From Candidatus Saccharimonadales bacterium (GTDB taxonomy: Bacteria; Patescibacteriota; Saccharimonadia; Saccharimonadales; DASWIF01), in NCBI GenBank assembly GCA_036397795.1, contig DASWIF010000038.1:1-35438 (forward strand): a DNA stretch of 35,438 nt. The letters run 5' to 3'. This document shows, piece after piece, positions 2,081-10,964 of the stretch. How positions within the stretch are numbered: position 1 is the stretch's first letter; every line of letters begins with the position of its first letter. Below the pieces are notes generated by a model. That model was not told the DNA's origin. It saw only the letters and a list, made by a program, of their open reading frames with translations, and did not search any database. Position numbers and translations under genes: made by a program.

Positions 2081-3486
2081 AGCAGCCGATCGAACAATTG
2101 CTAAAAAATGCTAACCGCCCCGAACCGGATTTATCAGTTAATGCGGCCAATCTAAGACAGATATATATGACCGCGGCGAAGAATTATAAAAAATACAACG
2201 CCAAAACGATTAAAGGCGGCTGGTTTTATCAAGGCCGGACGGCGGCAACTTTCTTTGCGCTGGGGGCGATGGTAATAATCGGCGGTGGTACCGTTTTAGC
2301 TCAGGCCGGCAAATCAAAACCGGGTGACATTCTTTACAGCTTGGATCGAACCATCGAGCGGACTCGGCTGGCACTGGCTAATAGTACCCACTCTAAGCTG
2401 GATCTTAAAATCGGCTTTGCCGATGAACGGTTGGACGAGCTGGTTAGCGTCGAGGTTGATAATCGCGGCCAGCTCAATCAGGCGATTGAGCAGACAAGCA
2501 ACACACTCGGCGAGCTGGATAATGAATTTGACAATATTAAACTCTCGCTCGAGCTGGACACGAGAGCGGATATTACGAGCGATCAACTAATGGAGCTGAC
2601 GGCCAGGTTGCGCGAGCTGCTGAGCAGATACCGCGACGATTTTGGCCGGTTAAGCATTGAACTAGAGGGGGACGAATTGGAAATCGAACTGGAAGACATC
2701 AACGATATATTTGAAAATGAACTGGATGAAGAACAAAACTCGATTCAAGACGGATTTTTAGTCGAGCTGAGAGGACGAGTCAACGACGACGGCACGGCCA
2801 TCAACGTGTTGGGCCACGATATATCTCTATCACTTAGTGATATCAGCGTCGAACTGTTTGCCGGCCGGACGGTGAAAGTAGAGGGCGTTCTGTCCGGCGG
2901 CAGCTTCTCGGCCCGCGAACTTAAGTTTGGGCTGTTTAAACTGCAAACCGAAAACGGCCGGGTTGAGTTTCGGGCTACTGACTTAATCGAGCAAGATGGC
3001 AGCGGTTATTTTGTCGAGCATGATGGTGTTAGGGTCGAGCTAACCGGTTTAGCCAGCGACAGTAATTTTGCCTCTTTGGTTGGTAGGGTAGCCGAGTTGA
3101 GAGGCCTATTAGACGGGGGCGGCGCGCAGCTATTTAGAGTCAAAGCCGATGATAAAGACGGTGGCGTTAAGATAGAACTGCGCGACCGCGCACTTGATGA
3201 TATTGACGATGACGGCGGAGATAGCAACCGGGGCTCAGACGATGACGACGAGGCCGGTTCGGACCTGGGAGACGACGACGTGCCAGACAACCTCGCTATC
3301 GAGGCCGAGGGCACGCTGGTTTTTAGCGGCGGCAAGTACAAAGTAACCGATGAAGGCGTAGCTTACACTATCCAGACCTCGCAAAATATCGGCCCTTGGG
3401 TCGGCCAAAAAGTCAAAGTCAAAGGCGAGCTGGCCTCAATCGGCAGCACGACAATAGTAGCCGAAGAAATCAGACTGGACGACTAA
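2077..3486 (+). CDS. Membrane anti-sigma-like protein with DUF5667 and DUF5666-like domains
   Basis: 469 residues. The ATG overlaps the sigma factor stop (ATGA), implying translational coupling. A cytoplasmic tail of about 55 residues precedes one transmembrane helix at 56-77. Outside lies a charged helical segment (KPGDILYSLDRTIERTRLAL, then KLDLKIGFADERLDELVSVE) that matches the DUF5667 style seen next to ECF sigma factors. Short beta-rich modules of DUF5666/OB type follow at about 228-290 and 295-356, then a highly acidic linker at about 374-403, then a last module to the C terminus (EGTLVFSGGKYKV, then GQKVKVKGEL). The role is inferred: tether the sigma factor until an envelope signal is sensed by the external modules. 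I cannot see a classic zinc-binding anti-sigma motif in the N-terminal tail, so the sigma-binding part is unproven. Confidence 0.8.
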   Translation: MKQPIEQLLKNANRPEPDLSVNAANLRQIYMTAAKNYKKYNAKTIKGGWFYQGRTAATFFALGAMVIIGGGTVLAQAGKSKPGDILYSLDRTIERTRLALANSTHSKLDLKIGFADERLDELVSVEVDNRGQLNQAIEQTSNTLGELDNEFDNIKLSLELDTRADITSDQLMELTARLRELLSRYRDDFGRLSIELEGDELEIELEDINDIFENELDEEQNSIQDGFLVELRGRVNDDGTAINVLGHDISLSLSDISVELFAGRTVKVEGVLSGGSFSARELKFGLFKLQTENGRVEFRATDLIEQDGSGYFVEHDGVRVELTGLASDSNFASLVGRVAELRGLLDGGGAQLFRVKADDKDGGVKIELRDRALDDIDDDGGDSNRGSDDDDEAGSDLGDDDVPDNLAIEAEGTLVFSGGKYKVTDEGVAYTIQTSQNIGPWVGQKVKVKGELASIGSTTIVAEEIRLDD

Positions 3487-6400
3487 GAGTGTTTTTTGAC
3501 CGAGCGTCTAGTGGCGCCAGCGGTCGTAATCAAGGTTAGCCCGAGTATTAACATAACCCAGGCCGGCTGGCCACTCTTGCCAAGGGTGCCGGTAGTGTCG
3601 GCAAGAACCTGTCCGGGGTCCCGGGTATCGGTAGTACCTTGGACGTTCGGCAGACTGCCAAAGTCATTGGCAACGGATATCGGTGAAGCTAGGCTCAAAT
3701 CGATAGAATAGCAGAAGTTTGCAATAAGGGTATCCAAGGCAGGGTCAGGGTCGCTCCCGATTTGACTGCCGACAGCGATTAAGCTGGCGTCTATGCCTCC
3801 CAGCCCGGCGTTGTTTAGCTCGGTTTGGAACCAACCGTCCTGAATGTCTTGACAGACGTAGTAGGTGCCAGGGACAGATAAGTTCTCAAACAAGTATTCG
3901 CCGCCGGCGTTGGTAGTCGTAACGGCATGCAAGAACCACGGACTGTTGTGGGTCAGAAGCCAAACCGTCCGGTCGGCCAGTGGGTCTTCCGCTGGGTCTT
4001 TCTGCTCGTTGCTGTTAGCGTCGTTATAGACCAAACCTTGGATTTGGCCGGTAACCTCGACGTTCCAAGCCACGCAGTGATAGATATCGCCCGGCTGGAT
4101 GTTGTCAATAAAGTCCCAGTTATCGTAGTTTAGAATGTCTTCGCCGCAATACAGTTCGGCCGAGACGTCATTAGTGGTGTTCTGCCCGCTGAAAGGTATG
4201 TACTCTTCGTTCCAAACTTCGCGGATCCAGACTTTGTCGCTATCTCCTTGATCGGCGGCTGTTAGTTCGACACCGGTAGCGGCGTCAAAGGTGGTCCAGC
4301 CATCACCGGCCGGGCCAGTGTTGTCTCCGGGGTTGTTGGTCGGGTCCATCTTCCACTCAAAGTCCCAAGCGACCTCATCGCAGTGCTCAGAATTATCGCC
4401 GATATTCAGCCACCGGGTGGCAGTGTTGGAAGTTATGAGGTCCGGTCCGGTCTGGCCGTTGCCCCAGTTGGGCAAGCGGTCTTCGCTGTCGCAAACAATC
4501 TTGGTGCCAAGCACCGTAACTGGTTTTTCTACGTTCCAGGCGAGACAGTAGTAATTGCCGCCAGGTTCGACATTATCTAGCCATTCCCAGTTATCGTAGT
4601 GAAGTATGTCGTTGCCACAGTACAACTCGGCCGAAACGTCCTCAGTGGTATTTTGACCGGTAAATGGTATGTAGTTATCGTTCCAAACTTCACGGACACG
4701 AAGGTCGTCGCCAGACTCACCCAGCCATATAGTGGTCGTGTCGTTGAAAGTGTTCCAGCCGGCTATCTCACCGGTGTTATCATCCGGGTCGCCGTTGGCT
4801 GGCGTACCCCACTGGAAATCCCAATCGACTTTTTGGCAATGCTCAGAATTATCATCAGCGTTGAGCCAGCGATCGGCGGTATTACTGGTAATCAAGGCGG
4901 CAGGTTCGCCATCGCCCCAGTTGGGCAAGCGGTCTTCGCTGTCGCAAACAATCTTGACGACGCTTAGTACAGCTGGTTTCAGCACGTTGAACCCGACACA
5001 GTAGTAATCTTCATCTGGTTTAGGATTAAGGATGAAATCGAAGTTGTCGTAGTTGAGTATGTCGGTGTTGCAATACAGTTCGGCGGATTCATGGTTGGTG
5101 GTATTGGGGCCGCCAAAAGGTATGTAGTCGTTGTTAAACACCTCGCGTACCCAGATTCTATCACCCCCAGCCAAATCAGCTTCGGTTAAAGTGGCTGAAT
5201 TAGCAAAGGTGTGCCAAGGATCACCGGCCTCACCCTGATCGTCGCCGGGGTTAGCCGTGTTCGGCGCCCACTGGAACTGCCATCGGGCCAACTGACAAGC
5301 TCCGTCACTGGCATTTACCCAGCGCTGAGCAGTGTTAGCGGTAATAAGCGAAGCTGGTTCGCCATCGCCCCAGTTGGGCAGGTCGGCTTCGGTGTCACAG
5401 ACGACTTTGGCGGCATGGATGTTAAATTCATCGGGCTGTTCGACGTTCCAAGCCACGCAGTGGTAAGACTGGCCCGGCTCGGGGTTATCGATGAAATCCC
5501 AGTTGTCGTAGTTAAGAATGTCGCTGCCACAGTACAACTCGGCCGAAACGTCTTGAGTGGTATTTTGACCGGTAAACGGTATGTAATTATCATTCCAGAC
5601 TTCCCTAATCCAAATCCGGGTACTATCACCCTGCTGAGCCGGGCTTAGTTCGACACCGGTAGCGGCGTCAAAAGGGGTCCAGCCGTCACCGGCCGGGCCA
5701 GTGTTGTCTCCGGGGTTGTTGGTCGGGTCCATCTTCCACTCAAAGTCCCAAGCGACTTTATCGCAGTGGTCGTCGTTGTCATCTTCGGCAAGCCAATCAT
5801 CGGCCGTGGTAGCACCGATTGTAGCCGGTCCAGTCTGGCCGTTACCCCAGTTGGGCAAGCGGTCTTCAGTGTCGCAAACAATCTTGGTGCCAAGTACCGT
5901 AACTGGTTTTTCTACGTTCCAGGCGACGCAGTAGTAGGTTTCTCCCTCCTTGGGGCTGCTTACCCATTCCCAGTTGTCGTAGTTGGCTGCATCGGTATGG
6001 CAATAGAACTCGGCTGAAACACTGTCATCAGAATGCTGTCCGGTAAACGGTATATATCCTTCTGGCAACACTTCTCTTAGCTGGATTGTCGTGTTTCCAG
6101 ACAAAGGAATGTGCTCAGAGTTGGTGAAAGTCTCCCAGCCATCTAGCTCCCCATAACCTGTTGGCTCTGGCGAGCTTGAACCGCTTAAACGATATTGGTA
6201 GTCCCAATTTTCCTCTAGATCACAACCTTCATTCTGATTAACAAAGTCTTGGGCTGTGTCAGGGCCAACTGAACTATAGCCGTCATCAGGCAGTTTTGCT
6301 TCATCATCACATACTATCTTATGGGCGATGACAGTAGCCGCATTCCTAGGAGCCGGCTCGTCACCGCAATTGTCGAGCCAGAAGGCTATGCCTTCATCAC

Positions 6401-7523
6401 TCCAGTTCTGTCCGTCATTTACGCCTGGAACCGGAGGAACGATATCTCCCCAACCACGATTCTGCTGGTTGTGCACATCTGGATCGAAGACCGGCCCGGT
6501 GTGGTTGCTATGGTCGTTACCGCCATCACCGTCAATAGCGCTGGTATCTACTTCTATTGAATTATAGGGATTTTGAGCCGAATCAGTGGCATGGCAAATT
6601 CTAACCTTGCCATCATTATTCACAAAGTTAGATGAGGCCAAACCGACATTATCTATTAAATAACCATTGCCGCTAGTGTCTGGCGCCGAACCTCCGCTTA
6701 CGCGAAACAACAAGGAATCTACTGTTCGGCTCTTATTCTCAAGATTTGAATCGTGCGGATTTCCTTGTGACTCGGTATCAAAGCGGAAGTAATTTTCCCA
6801 ACTAGTGCCAGTGTGCACTAACGTGTCGTCAATATAGATTTTTACGACATCGTTAGACGAGCCAGCAACAAAATCCATGACGAACTTTGCGGTGTGCACA
6901 GAGTTTCTTGAAAGACCAGTAGCGACCGTTGTTCCTACAAAATTAGCTACTTGAAATCCCACATTCTCATCCTGAACATCAAAGAAGATGACGTCGATAC
7001 CACCAACTGTATCTTCGAATCCAAGATAGCTCATGCGAGCACCATCACCTCTATCAGGAGATACGGACATAAACAGTCCGGGTTGGTGGTCTTGCATTGT
7101 TGACGCGAAATCAAACTGAGCTTCAAAATGCGGTTGGCGCGTACCGCCAGACAAGCTGCCGTTTTCTGCTGATGGTTCACCGGCCTCATCAACTAAAGAT
7201 TTAGTAAAAGTCTGATCTCCGAAAGAGCCGCTGGTTACGGCATTTGATATGCGAAATGTTTGAGAACCAAACTCGGAAATACCGTAGGTATTTGTGACGA
7301 CCTCTTGATCAAACGGTCCAGTTGAGCTCCATCCGTCCTGGCCATCAACTGAACCCAGCGAGTAAGATTCAAAATCAATGGGACCCAGATCATCTGCCTT
7401 AGTTGGACTTACAAACAATACCGTCTGTGAAAAAATAAAAATTCCGGCAATCGCCAGAATTATTAACCTCAAATATTTTTGGACAAAGGGCGTTATTACA
7501 CCCCGTTTATAGTGATAATACAT
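3483..7523 (-). CDS. Large secreted repeat surface protein with C-terminal membrane anchor
   Basis: 1346 residues. I place the start at the ATG at 7523 (MYYHYKRG) because it has a GAGGG eight bases upstream and lies downstream of a TTGACA/TATAAT promoter; the ATG at 7553 overlaps that -10 box. Order: hydrophobic signal at about 20-40; a beta-sandwich, lectin-like domain to about residue 270; a CHATDSAQNPYNSIEV module at about 305-385; five repeats of 145-158 residues (about 396-1155); an SdrD B-like Ig module (GLVYNDANSNEQKDPAEDPL) around 1160-1290; and a hydrophobic helix ending in RRSVKKHS. A LADTTG stretch before the helix loosely resembles a sortase signal but is not LPxTG. The protein is surely exported and probably displayed on the cell surface, perhaps for adhesion to a host cell or polymer. 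The stop overlaps the convergent anti-sigma-like gene by four bases. Confidence 0.85.
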   Translation of the reverse strand: MYYHYKRGVITPFVQKYLRLIILAIAGIFIFSQTVLFVSPTKADDLGPIDFESYSLGSVDGQDGWSSTGPFDQEVVTNTYGISEFGSQTFRISNAVTSGSFGDQTFTKSLVDEAGEPSAENGSLSGGTRQPHFEAQFDFASTMQDHQPGLFMSVSPDRGDGARMSYLGFEDTVGGIDVIFFDVQDENVGFQVANFVGTTVATGLSRNSVHTAKFVMDFVAGSSNDVVKIYIDDTLVHTGTSWENYFRFDTESQGNPHDSNLENKSRTVDSLLFRVSGGSAPDTSGNGYLIDNVGLASSNFVNNDGKVRICHATDSAQNPYNSIEVDTSAIDGDGGNDHSNHTGPVFDPDVHNQQNRGWGDIVPPVPGVNDGQNWSDEGIAFWLDNCGDEPAPRNAATVIAHKIVCDDEAKLPDDGYSSVGPDTAQDFVNQNEGCDLEENWDYQYRLSGSSSPEPTGYGELDGWETFTNSEHIPLSGNTTIQLREVLPEGYIPFTGQHSDDSVSAEFYCHTDAANYDNWEWVSSPKEGETYYCVAWNVEKPVTVLGTKIVCDTEDRLPNWGNGQTGPATIGATTADDWLAEDDNDDHCDKVAWDFEWKMDPTNNPGDNTGPAGDGWTPFDAATGVELSPAQQGDSTRIWIREVWNDNYIPFTGQNTTQDVSAELYCGSDILNYDNWDFIDNPEPGQSYHCVAWNVEQPDEFNIHAAKVVCDTEADLPNWGDGEPASLITANTAQRWVNASDGACQLARWQFQWAPNTANPGDDQGEAGDPWHTFANSATLTEADLAGGDRIWVREVFNNDYIPFGGPNTTNHESAELYCNTDILNYDNFDFILNPKPDEDYYCVGFNVLKPAVLSVVKIVCDSEDRLPNWGDGEPAALITSNTADRWLNADDNSEHCQKVDWDFQWGTPANGDPDDNTGEIAGWNTFNDTTTIWLGESGDDLRVREVWNDNYIPFTGQNTTEDVSAELYCGNDILHYDNWEWLDNVEPGGNYYCLAWNVEKPVTVLGTKIVCDSEDRLPNWGNGQTGPDLITSNTATRWLNIGDNSEHCDEVAWDFEWKMDPTNNPGDNTGPAGDGWTTFDAATGVELTAADQGDSDKVWIREVWNEEYIPFSGQNTTNDVSAELYCGEDILNYDNWDFIDNIQPGDIYHCVAWNVEVTGQIQGLVYNDANSNEQKDPAEDPLADRTVWLLTHNSPWFLHAVTTTNAGGEYLFENLSVPGTYYVCQDIQDGWFQTELNNAGLGGIDASLIAVGSQIGSDPDPALDTLIANFCYSIDLSLASPISVANDFGSLPNVQGTTDTRDPGQVLADTTGTLGKSGQPAWVMLILGLTLITTAGATRRSVKKHS
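4262..4385 (-). repeat. 124-bp near-identical segment, copy in repeat unit 5
   Basis: Aligns without gaps to 5645-5768 with five mismatches in 124 bases by eye. It encodes the central part of the unit (the WKMDPTNNPGDNTGP region). The rest of the two units is less similar, so this looks like recent duplication or gene conversion between units 2 and 5. Confidence 0.9.
5645..5768 (-). repeat. 124-bp near-identical segment, copy in repeat unit 2
   Basis: Partner of 4262-4385; five mismatches, no gaps. The two copies are about 1.38 kb apart, enough for recombination to add or remove three repeat units in frame. Confidence 0.9.
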
Positions 7524-7551
7524 AAAAAGTACCCTCGCAGTTACTATAAGC

Positions 7552-7578
7552 ATTATACTACGCCAACACTTTTGTCAA
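7552..7578 (-). promoter_or_regulatory. Promoter of the surface protein gene
   Basis: On the minus strand TTGACA (7578-7573) and TATAAT (7557-7552) are separated by 15 bases, slightly short but both hexamers are perfect. The 5' leader would be about 22-25 bases and carries the GAGGG ribosome-binding site before the ATG at 7523. The -35 box lies eight bases from the -10 box of the divergent sugar dehydrogenase gene. Confidence 0.75.
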
Positions 7579-8872: not shown

Positions 8873-9241
8873 ATGCTTTATTTCTTCGGGCTGTTGTTCT
8901 CCTTGCTGATAGTTGCCGGAAATACAATGTACAAATACGCCGTCGACCGAGCCGGGTTCGAACCGACGCCAGGCTTTATTTTTTCACGGAGAATGCTGGA
9001 CTTATTGTTGTCATGGCAATTTCTATCGGGCCTCGGGACATTTGTCGTCGCGTCGCTTATAAGTTTTTGGATGTTGACGCGGTTTCAATTCAGTGCCATC
9101 CAAGCCGTGACCGTGCCAGTAGTTATGGCGGTCAGCTACATCGTCGGCGCGAGCCTGTTTAAAGATTCAATCAGTTGGATTAATCTGGCTGGCTTGGTGG
9201 TGCTGGTGGCCGGTGTGGTCTTAGCCAGTTACAAGGGCTAG
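8873..9241 (+). CDS. Four-helix membrane protein of the small EamA/SMR transporter type
   Basis: 122 residues almost wholly hydrophobic, with four predicted helices at about 2-18, 45-68, 72-93 and 98-119. The size and the pattern (internal AVTVPVVMAVSYIVGASLFKD, then WINLAGLVVLVAGVVLAS) fit half-size drug/metabolite transporters such as the small multidrug resistance and EamA families, which work as dimers. The conserved membrane Glu of classical SMR exporters near the first helix is not evident, so the substrate is open. A TAAAAT box at 8861-8866 lies six bases before the ATG, suggesting a leaderless message. It lies 37 bases after the dehydrogenase gene but seems to have its own promoter. 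Confidence 0.7.
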   Translation: MLYFFGLLFSLLIVAGNTMYKYAVDRAGFEPTPGFIFSRRMLDLLLSWQFLSGLGTFVVASLISFWMLTRFQFSAIQAVTVPVVMAVSYIVGASLFKDSISWINLAGLVVLVAGVVLASYKG

Positions 9242-9303
9242 CTGTCGCTGGTCAGGTACCAAAAAAAGGTATGCTATGCTAAATCCGAGGTACTTAACAA
9301 TTT

Positions 9304-9500
9304 AACTCGCGCGTTTAACGGAAGCAGGGTGTAATTCCCTCACTGTGCCGCAACCGTAAAGATCAGTGAGAAGAACCAAGGTTTTTCTCATCGGACCTGG
9401 CGAATTAAGTTCGCCGTCACGAAACATAGTCGTGAACCGGTCCGGCTCTTTTTCAAAGTAAAAAGAACCGATCTAAGTCGGATACGTTGGCGTTCGAGCA
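9304..9500 (+). ncRNA. Cobalamin (adenosylcobalamin-type) riboswitch
   Basis: The core matches the B12-element consensus: GGAA, then GGTGTAATTCC, then CTG and CCGCAACCGTAAA (9320-9360), and a 3' segment AGTCGGATACGTTGGCG (9476-9492). Helices can be traced by hand. CTCACTG (9339-9345) pairs with CAGTGAG (9364-9370). A peripheral three-way junction is closed by GGACC/GGTCC (9393-9442) with two perfect hairpins inside. A further hairpin occupies about 9443-9469. CTCG near 9306 can close with CGAG near 9496. The RNA ends about 22 bases before the ATG at 9522, and no U-tract terminator is seen between, so control is probably at translation initiation. A TATGCT box at about 9270-9275 is a possible promoter. 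The ligand class comes from the family; the target gene is unusual. Confidence 0.92.
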
Positions 9501-9521
9501 TCAAAGACTCCCGAGCAGGAT

Positions 9522-10964
9522 ATGAGCTTTTTAGTAGTTGCTCTTCGGCTCGCTAGCAGTCGGAGGGTTTTTAATTTGGAGCGGCCAACAGCAAGTTACG
9601 AAACAATCTCGGCCTGGGATCATCCGGCCTGGCAACAAGCCTGGGCCAAATCAGCCGAGATTATAAACGCTATTGAATATAAAGAAATTCCCGAGTTGGC
9701 TGAGATAACCGACGACGATCCGATCGGTTCTAGCAGACTCTATTGGCAGCAGGTTGAAGTCTATGGCCCCGATTCACCACAAGCCAAGCAAGCAAAGGAC
9801 TACGTAAAAAACGACGCCAGAACCGCCGGCTGGGAGGCACTGATTAAGCGCGGGCACGTGTCAATTGTCCAAGCCCAGATGGATCGGCAGCGGCGCGGCT
9901 TTTGTGTCAATGGCGTCCCGATCGTTGATATCTCGATCCGCGGGCTCGCTAGTTCAAGCTTAAATAATGAAGAATTTATCCGTCGCAGTGTCGAATTAAA
10001 TGTTGGCATACTGGTTAACATACTTGGCGCTCAAGGTGAGTTAAATGAAACCAACGCTATGGTTTGGATTACACCTTACGCTCACGATATGGCTGATGAC
10101 TTGGCTGCCGAGCTGGGCTACGACGCCAAAGAGCGGACATATATGGTTCGTTGGTTTGAGGTGAATGGTGACGAGTTAACGATGAAACAGCTCAACATGA
10201 AGGCCAGTGACACTATCAGGCTGAGTCGGGCCATGAGCCAGTTAGGGGTTAAGGAAGCCTCCGAGGAGCTTTCAGCCACCGGCATCCTGGCTACACCCGT
10301 CATAGTCAAACGCTCAGATTTTAGCAACGGACCGGCCGACATCGCCAAACTGATAGACAACGGCGAACAATGGCTGGGCCAGGAGTTAGCGGGACAGATG
10401 GATTATTTGGAGTTAGAAAGGGTGTCGATCGAGCGCGAGCGGCGATTTGAGGCCAATATCGACCAGCTGGCGGAGACGATCATCAACATCGCCCGTCGGC
10501 CCGATTGGCGGATCGACCAAGGAGATAGATACATGTTGGCGATTCGGGAATTTATCGACCAAGTCGCGGCCGTCGATCCCGAACTGGCCCGAGACGCTAT
10601 TGGCGAGAAAGCCGCCGACTGTTACCGCCGGGCCTACGACGCGTTGGCAGACGGGGACATTAGCGACGCGATTGAACTGCAACGGCAGGGTTATGAATCG
10701 ACCAAAGATATCTATCTTTGCGGCATGGTCATTGCCAGGCAGGCCGACTTGGAACCGCCAAGCAGTCTATTGGTCTGCAGCGAGTTTAAAATTGGCCAAC
10801 ACGTGGTTTGTCCGAACTGCCATAAATCCCAAATCATAATCCGGGCTAATCTCAGTAAGAACCGGCTTTATTGCGCCAACCAAAACTGCGGATTGGCCAA
10901 GATCAAGCGCAAGGCTCCAAAGCGGCTGCAACCAGCCGCTAAAAAATCAGTTATTTATTACTAA
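9522..10964 (+). CDS. Unrecognised 480-residue protein with C-terminal zinc ribbon, under riboswitch control
   Basis: I do not recognise the family. No signal peptide or convincing membrane helix is seen, so it should be cytoplasmic. Residues 40-290 are mixed alpha/beta with segments such as RRGFCVNGVPIVDISIRG and NAMVWITPYAHDMADDLAAELG. Residues 300-400 are charged helices (MDYLELERVSIERERRFEANI). Near the end Cys430, Cys433, Cys451 and Cys456 form a CxxC-17-CxxxxC zinc-ribbon-like knuckle followed by a very basic tail (KIKRKAPKR), suggesting nucleic-acid or protein binding. The ATG at 9522 has only a weak AGGA close by; the first 20 residues look atypical, so the true start may be slightly downstream. 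Known cobalamin riboswitch targets are B12 transport, synthesis and B12-replacing enzymes, none of which this resembles. A regulator or an accessory factor of B12 use are both possible. Confidence 0.85.
   Translation: MSFLVVALRLASSRRVFNLERPTASYETISAWDHPAWQQAWAKSAEIINAIEYKEIPELAEITDDDPIGSSRLYWQQVEVYGPDSPQAKQAKDYVKNDARTAGWEALIKRGHVSIVQAQMDRQRRGFCVNGVPIVDISIRGLASSSLNNEEFIRRSVELNVGILVNILGAQGELNETNAMVWITPYAHDMADDLAAELGYDAKERTYMVRWFEVNGDELTMKQLNMKASDTIRLSRAMSQLGVKEASEELSATGILATPVIVKRSDFSNGPADIAKLIDNGEQWLGQELAGQMDYLELERVSIERERRFEANIDQLAETIINIARRPDWRIDQGDRYMLAIREFIDQVAAVDPELARDAIGEKAADCYRRAYDALADGDISDAIELQRQGYESTKDIYLCGMVIARQADLEPPSSLLVCSEFKIGQHVVCPNCHKSQIIIRANLSKNRLYCANQNCGLAKIKRKAPKRLQPAAKKSVIYY

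Follow-up and report, generated by a model that had tools for sequence, protein, structure and literature searches.

An AdoCbl-II-type riboswitch in a Saccharimonadales genome precedes a gene of an undescribed patescibacterial superfamily, a candidate accessory factor of the B12-dependent ribonucleotide reductase

What class of RNA element controls a gene of no recognised family in a near-minimal bacterial genome, and what might the encoded protein do? The DNA analysed here (the window) is a stretch of 35,438 nt from Candidatus Saccharimonadales bacterium, contig C38 of a 780-kb genome (G000; 80 contigs, 95% complete). A sequence-only reading had proposed a cobalamin riboswitch in front of an unrecognised zinc-ribbon protein. 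Patescibacteria are thought to be dependent on their hosts for vitamins. The window also encodes a 1356-aa repetitive, signal-anchored surface-like protein with many near-repeats (WDFEWKMDPTNNPGDNTGP) at 3483-7553 and, just upstream of the riboswitch, a small EamA/TMEM234-like gene at 8873-9241; a similar membrane ORF lies upstream of the riboswitch in a related genome (G014, L002).

At gathering thresholds, a tRNA was the sole Rfam match in the window, and no riboswitch family reached its gathering score there. At the E-value threshold, the AdoCbl-II family (RF01689) matched positions 9311-9376 of the plus strand with 25.5 bits (E=8.9e-4), below its gathering score of 36.5 bits, which was exceeded in 14 of 100 relatives. 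A covariance model (R1) was built on an alignment of 44 leaders from other genomes (A1), with the window left out. This model matched the window at 9302-9428 with 47.7 bits (E=2.4e-11), and sites were found in 179 of the 393 genomes of the order that were surveyed. Double-sided changes occurred in 8 of the 12 predicted consensus pairs of A1. The aptamer family and its covariation are thus established computationally, with the aptamer located at approximately 9302-9520 on the plus strand.

The sequence-only reading had assumed RF00174 and had named the lack of a significant match to it as evidence against a riboswitch. RF00174 indeed gave no match across the genome at E<=0.001, yet the sister family RF01689 and R1 both matched. 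Judged by its sequence, the window RNA is a cobalamin-family riboswitch of the AdoCbl-II type (RF01689 clan) and not RF00174; the earlier claim therefore holds for the cobalamin family and fails for the class. The window copy shares the core sequence, helices and loops of RF01689, including the covarying helices, and three copies from Levybacteria/Microgenomates pass the gathering score, but the window copy differs in its lower score, a 105-nt insert in P6 and a target gene without known function. RF00174 and AdoCbl (RF01482) belong to the same Rfam clan, and among the sister sites L051 scores as RF01482 and L054 as RF00174. The window RNA presumably binds cobalamin. A chance resemblance, with no riboswitch at all, might be suspected from the subthreshold Rfam score and the silence of RF00174, but is computationally refuted by the independent R1 match (E=2e-11), the covariation in the helices and the repeated presence of this element ahead of homologous genes in dozens of genomes.

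A search with a short core pattern found four sites only, and this pattern was rejected as too strict. Three EamA-linked loci (L053, L062 and L082) that had matched RF01689 at low score were discarded as AdoCbl-II targets; they carry FMN riboswitches instead, and R1 gives no match. These FMN riboswitches score below the RF00050 gathering threshold, and the EamA transporters behind them are possible riboflavin transporters.

The weak Rfam score of the window copy can be attributed to the P6 insert, which pushes the 3' half of the aptamer away from the 5' half. The P6 accessory region is highly variable in cobalamin riboswitches (PMC9600662). The predicted fold of the insert with its closing helix had an energy of -46.0 kcal/mol. 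In the relatives, the conserved 3' half reads AAGTCCGATACAGC... and is followed by CTCCCGAGCAGGAG; the window equivalent, AAGTCGGATACGTT ... ACTCCCGAGCAGGA at 9475-9520, is displaced by about 105 nt beyond the usual position and coincides with a second, weak R1 match (9452-9526, 10.8 bits, E=0.19). The 3' end placed by Rfam (9376) is wrong, the real 3' half being 9470-9520. A CCG/CGG pair in the window corresponds to CGG/CCG and CTG/CAG pairs in the relatives, and a P13/L13-type element was found in nearly all related leaders. The features of the locus are listed in Table 1. Large P6 inserts were also observed at L069, L085, L047 and L051, which have a 32-35 nt near-identical stretch in common, perhaps a dispersed repeat.

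Table 1. Features of the riboswitch and the downstream gene, in window positions.
Feature	Position	Strand	Basis
Aptamer 5' half GGAAGCAGGGTGTAATTCCCTCACTGTGCCGCAACCGTAA	9311..9361	+	RF01689 25.5 bits; R1 47.7 bits
Helices	9317-9320/9485-9488, 9326-9329/9337-9340, 9354-9356/9479-9481	+	Read from alignment, hand-placed
Structured insert of 105 nt, variable P6 arm	9365..9469	+	Closed by 9360-9364/9470-9474 (AGATC/GATCT), hand-placed from alignment
Aptamer 3' half AAGTCGGATACGTT with P13/L13 element CTCCCGAGCAGGA	9470..9520	+	Weak R1 match 9452-9526
Terminator hairpin GCTCTTCGGCT..AGTCGGAGGG with U-tract	9540..9572	+	Terminator scan (9540-9568), alternative folds
Gene for 462-aa soluble protein, TTG start (probable)	9576..10964	+	Starts of relatives; superfamily membership
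Codon of invariant lone C382 (YLCGM)	10719..10721	+	Invariant column
C-terminal zinc-ribbon-like module C412-x2-C415-x17-C433-x4-C438	10809..10889	+	Alignment

In its computed anatomy, the switch in the window has P13, an antiterminator and a terminator whose U-tract precedes the start codon, an arrangement that predicts an OFF switch. In the predicted alternative folds, P13 is able to pair with the 5' arm of the terminator as an antiterminator, and the Shine-Dalgarno sequence GGAGGG (9562-9567) lies within the 3' arm. Many leaders, including that of the window, use a purine-rich Shine-Dalgarno sequence as the terminator 3' arm. A scored terminator was present in 69 of 120 leaders, the window among them, and was lacking in 51 under the same simple criteria. 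Pairing between P13 and the terminator region had a mean score of 15.7, compared with 11.4 for shuffled sequences, and a score of at least 15 was obtained for 55% of the leaders versus 11% of the shuffled ones. This antiterminator pairing suggests OFF logic. An ON-switch reading was dropped on account of the many leaders in which P13 has the 5' arm of the terminator as its pairing partner. With coenzyme B12 bound, the aptamer would hold P13, so that the terminator forms and the ribosome-binding site would be hidden as well; when B12 is scarce, P13 would open the terminator and the protein would be made.

The leader also bears on the length of the protein. The earlier value of 480 residues depends on ATG 9522, which falls within the switch element. 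The U-tract in the surveyed leaders starts most often 7 nt ahead of the start codon. Because ATG 9522 is inside the switch and the starts of the relatives directly follow the terminator U-tract, translation most likely begins at TTG 9576, giving 462 aa, and ATG 9522 is most likely wrong.

No Pfam, NCBIfam or PHROG family was found for the window protein, and the members of its superfamily gave just stray weak matches to Pfam and NCBIfam in single proteins. Searches of Pfam, NCBIfam, PDB and Foldseek detected no homology over the protein body to known families of B12 transport proteins, biosynthetic enzymes or isozymes. PDB profile matches had E values of at least 0.0099, nearly all to the ribbon, and almost all were ribosomal zinc ribbons. 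BLAST relatives with 22-32% identity occurred in 15 of 100 genomes, its own genome counted. Among the first set of proteins encoded downstream of the riboswitch, 52 of 57 fell into one superfamily. A jackhmmer search from the window protein reached 124 of 137 riboswitch-downstream proteins and no control protein, although this is not an unbiased rate since the 137 comprise 80 added loci and the 57, which had been preselected from one linked cluster. The 13 proteins outside the superfamily were eight DUF4430-like proteins, one of which (L043) matches PF14478, one NrdA and four that resemble unassigned family members. Going by these sequence comparisons, the window protein is a member of an undescribed patescibacterial superfamily; no account of it was found in the open-access literature, with few subscription journals covered. 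The riboswitch class itself is already known.

The superfamily has a median length of 465 aa, and by hydropathy 122 of the 124 members lack both a signal peptide and a membrane segment, in agreement with the earlier description of a soluble protein. Invariant or near-invariant residues are E87, R136, E140, S/T166, D261, G268, Y277 and the lone C382; a Cys-rich ribbon is present as well. The CxxC-17-CxxxxC knuckle described earlier is present (Table 1), and six Cys residues lie within the last 140 residues of 76 of the 124 members. The core tree shows the ribbon types in scattered positions, with 18 changes among the five tail types, indicating that tails have been exchanged between subfamilies. 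Confident AlphaFold2 models were obtained for the window protein (mean pLDDT 86.4, pTM 0.81) and for a short subfamily (pLDDT 87.9, pTM 0.80). With neither model did Foldseek find anything in the PDB at E<=0.001, the PAS/LasR-like top scores being at noise level, and the window model had no match among viral structures. The protein thus remained unrecognised in profile, PDB and structure searches, as the sequence-only reading had stated.

Co-occurrence was analysed in 100 related genomes, G000 counted. The protein profile matched in 51 of them, and all 51 had the riboswitch; the pairing of riboswitch and protein proposed for the window recurs across the order. Two of the contigs, G013:C47 and G076:C29, gave profile matches equal in score and aligned range and are possibly shared or contaminant. 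NrdJ, the class II ribonucleotide reductase (RNR), scored over the curated cut-off in 81 genomes, including that of the window (G000:C24), and the class I small subunit was present in seven. NrdJ was found in 73 of 79 riboswitch genomes and in 11 of 21 others (p=8e-5), where the p-values given here ignore the kinship of the genomes and so overstate their independence, and some NrdJ absences fall in incomplete assemblies. Genomes with class I RNR lacked the R1 riboswitch (0 of 7 versus 79 of 93; p=7e-6, with the same bias from kinship) and likewise the protein (0 of 7). Within family f35, NrdJ occurred in 15 of 16 riboswitch genomes and in none of the seven without the riboswitch. The exceptions were six riboswitch genomes without an NrdJ match, including G020 with 98% completeness, and the 11 NrdJ genomes without an R1 match. 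For the protein alone, the association with NrdJ was not significant (46/51 versus 38/49, p=0.11), because many NrdJ genomes have no profile match. The proposed co-occurrence with a B12-dependent RNR was therefore borne out for the riboswitch and by the class I genomes, but not for the protein by itself.

The adenosyltransferase showed a similar pattern. PduO was considered for the order but was found in 0 of 100 genomes; the CobA type is present instead, over its cut-off in 85 genomes, that of the window included. It tracks the riboswitch, occurring in 77 of 79 genomes with and 8 of 21 genomes without it. Within the order, the gene was not seen adjoining nrdJ or an adenosyltransferase gene, and the linkage there is by co-occurrence only.

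Genomic linkage was observed in Levybacteria/Microgenomates, where nrdR, nrdJ, the AdoCbl-II riboswitch, a PduO cobalamin adenosyltransferase gene and a superfamily homologue occur in this order on 4 of 4 contigs found. The families were identified on two of these contigs and assigned on the remaining ones by gene order and sequence similarity; Pfam support consisted of NrdR and RNR domains on L195, TSCPD on L193 and PF01923 (PduO) on L191 and L193. R1 matched in all four named loci and RF01689 exceeded its gathering score in three. The homologue aligned with the superfamily over most of its length (hhalign, 98.3%; E=2e-14). A phylum-wide search of 380 genomes found three further genomes outside the order, in which the C-terminal part alone was matched; their loci, like the named copies, are of Levybacteria/Microgenomates. 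The protein is thus tied to PduO by operon in Levybacteria and to CobA by co-occurrence in the order, but it has no sequence match to either enzyme. Two other contexts of the riboswitch were noted: at L016 and L073, in two genomes, it also precedes a long acidic low-complexity protein, and at L032 (1638-2921) a partial riboswitch precedes a protein weakly matching the RNR all-alpha domain and TauD, both below the Pfam cut-offs.

We consider it rather probable that the protein works in the cytosol as an accessory factor for the adenosylcobalamin-NrdJ axis and is produced at low B12 under an AdoCbl-II OFF switch. The earlier suggestion of an accessory factor of B12 economy, perhaps acting on the B12-dependent RNR, gains support from the riboswitch-NrdJ co-occurrence and the Levybacteria/Microgenomates synteny. 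The favoured job would be the handling of cobalamin between the adenosyltransferase and the class II RNR. The biochemical step, as we infer it, may be cobalt salvage or reduction, or the loading or reactivation of NrdJ, and the outcome would be that dNTP synthesis goes on at low B12. A bolder and more tentative version, which we regard as possible but doubtful, is that a new fold and function are involved: the protein would be a switch-controlled (re)activator or reductant of an NrdJd-type class II RNR in episymbiotic bacteria, supplying an electron donor or loading the cofactor, with rapidly diverging, exchangeable zinc-ribbon tails.

A redox partner, which would re-reduce the Cys-rich C terminus of NrdJ or cob(II)alamin with the lone Cys and the mobile Cys-rich tail as electron carriers, is an attractive idea, because the NrdJ tail here is of a type whose native reductant is unknown. 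The NrdJ of the window genome, a 946-aa frame, ends in a linker and a six-cysteine tail that resemble NrdJd, for which neither thioredoxin nor glutaredoxin is the reductant (PMC5704485). The superfamily itself has the invariant lone Cys, a linker and the Cys ribbon, with six cysteines near the C terminus in most members. The protein and the class II RNR C-terminal domain both have a flexible linker that leads into a Cys-rich zinc ribbon, but hhalign aligned the ribbon only (27 columns, 7.5% probability), the remaining protein is unrelated and there was no fold match. On this alignment, homology of the protein to RNR was rejected, and a matching of its tail with that of the NrdJ encoded in the same genome was discarded as well, the tails not co-varying by eye. 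Moreover, a housekeeping reductant needs no shut-off when B12 is plentiful, and thioredoxin, flavin and Fe-S signatures are absent from the protein. A redox role of this kind is unlikely.

Uptake genes are the classical targets of cobalamin riboswitches, and the protein might instead capture or import cobalamin from the host cell. The same riboswitch controls DUF4430 genes, which in the cases examined are followed by DUF6580, and five genomes whose single switch is on DUF4430 had no superfamily match. Because DUF4430 takes the same regulatory slot in these genomes, an uptake-related job is conceivable. Against it, nearly all superfamily members lack a signal peptide or membrane segment, one genome (G141) carries both DUF4430 and the superfamily protein, and Levybacteria pair the homologue with a cytosolic adenosyltransferase. 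We judge B12 acquisition to be quite improbable.

A B12-independent bypass, in which the protein would supply deoxynucleotides by salvage or new chemistry when NrdJ is starved of its cofactor, is very improbable. In one genome (G334), one switch controls class I nrdA-nrdB, a B12-independent isozyme, and the next controls the adjoining superfamily gene, NrdJ being encoded elsewhere, and the invariant E, R, E, D, Y and C residues suggest an active site. However, the window protein has no Pfam RNR domain, no RNR barrel and no other significant fold match; the Levybacteria homologue is placed with the adenosyltransferase, and genomes that do without NrdJ lack the protein.

Riboswitches are a reliable guide to gene function. 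In this case they point to a superfamily that had gone unrecognised and connect it with the B12-dependent RNR pathway of Patescibacteria. As a probable accessory factor of the adenosylcobalamin-NrdJ axis, the protein is a candidate for a missing step, either in cobalamin handling or in NrdJ reduction. The finding suggests that even bacteria with near-minimal genomes may actively sense their coenzyme B12 economy.
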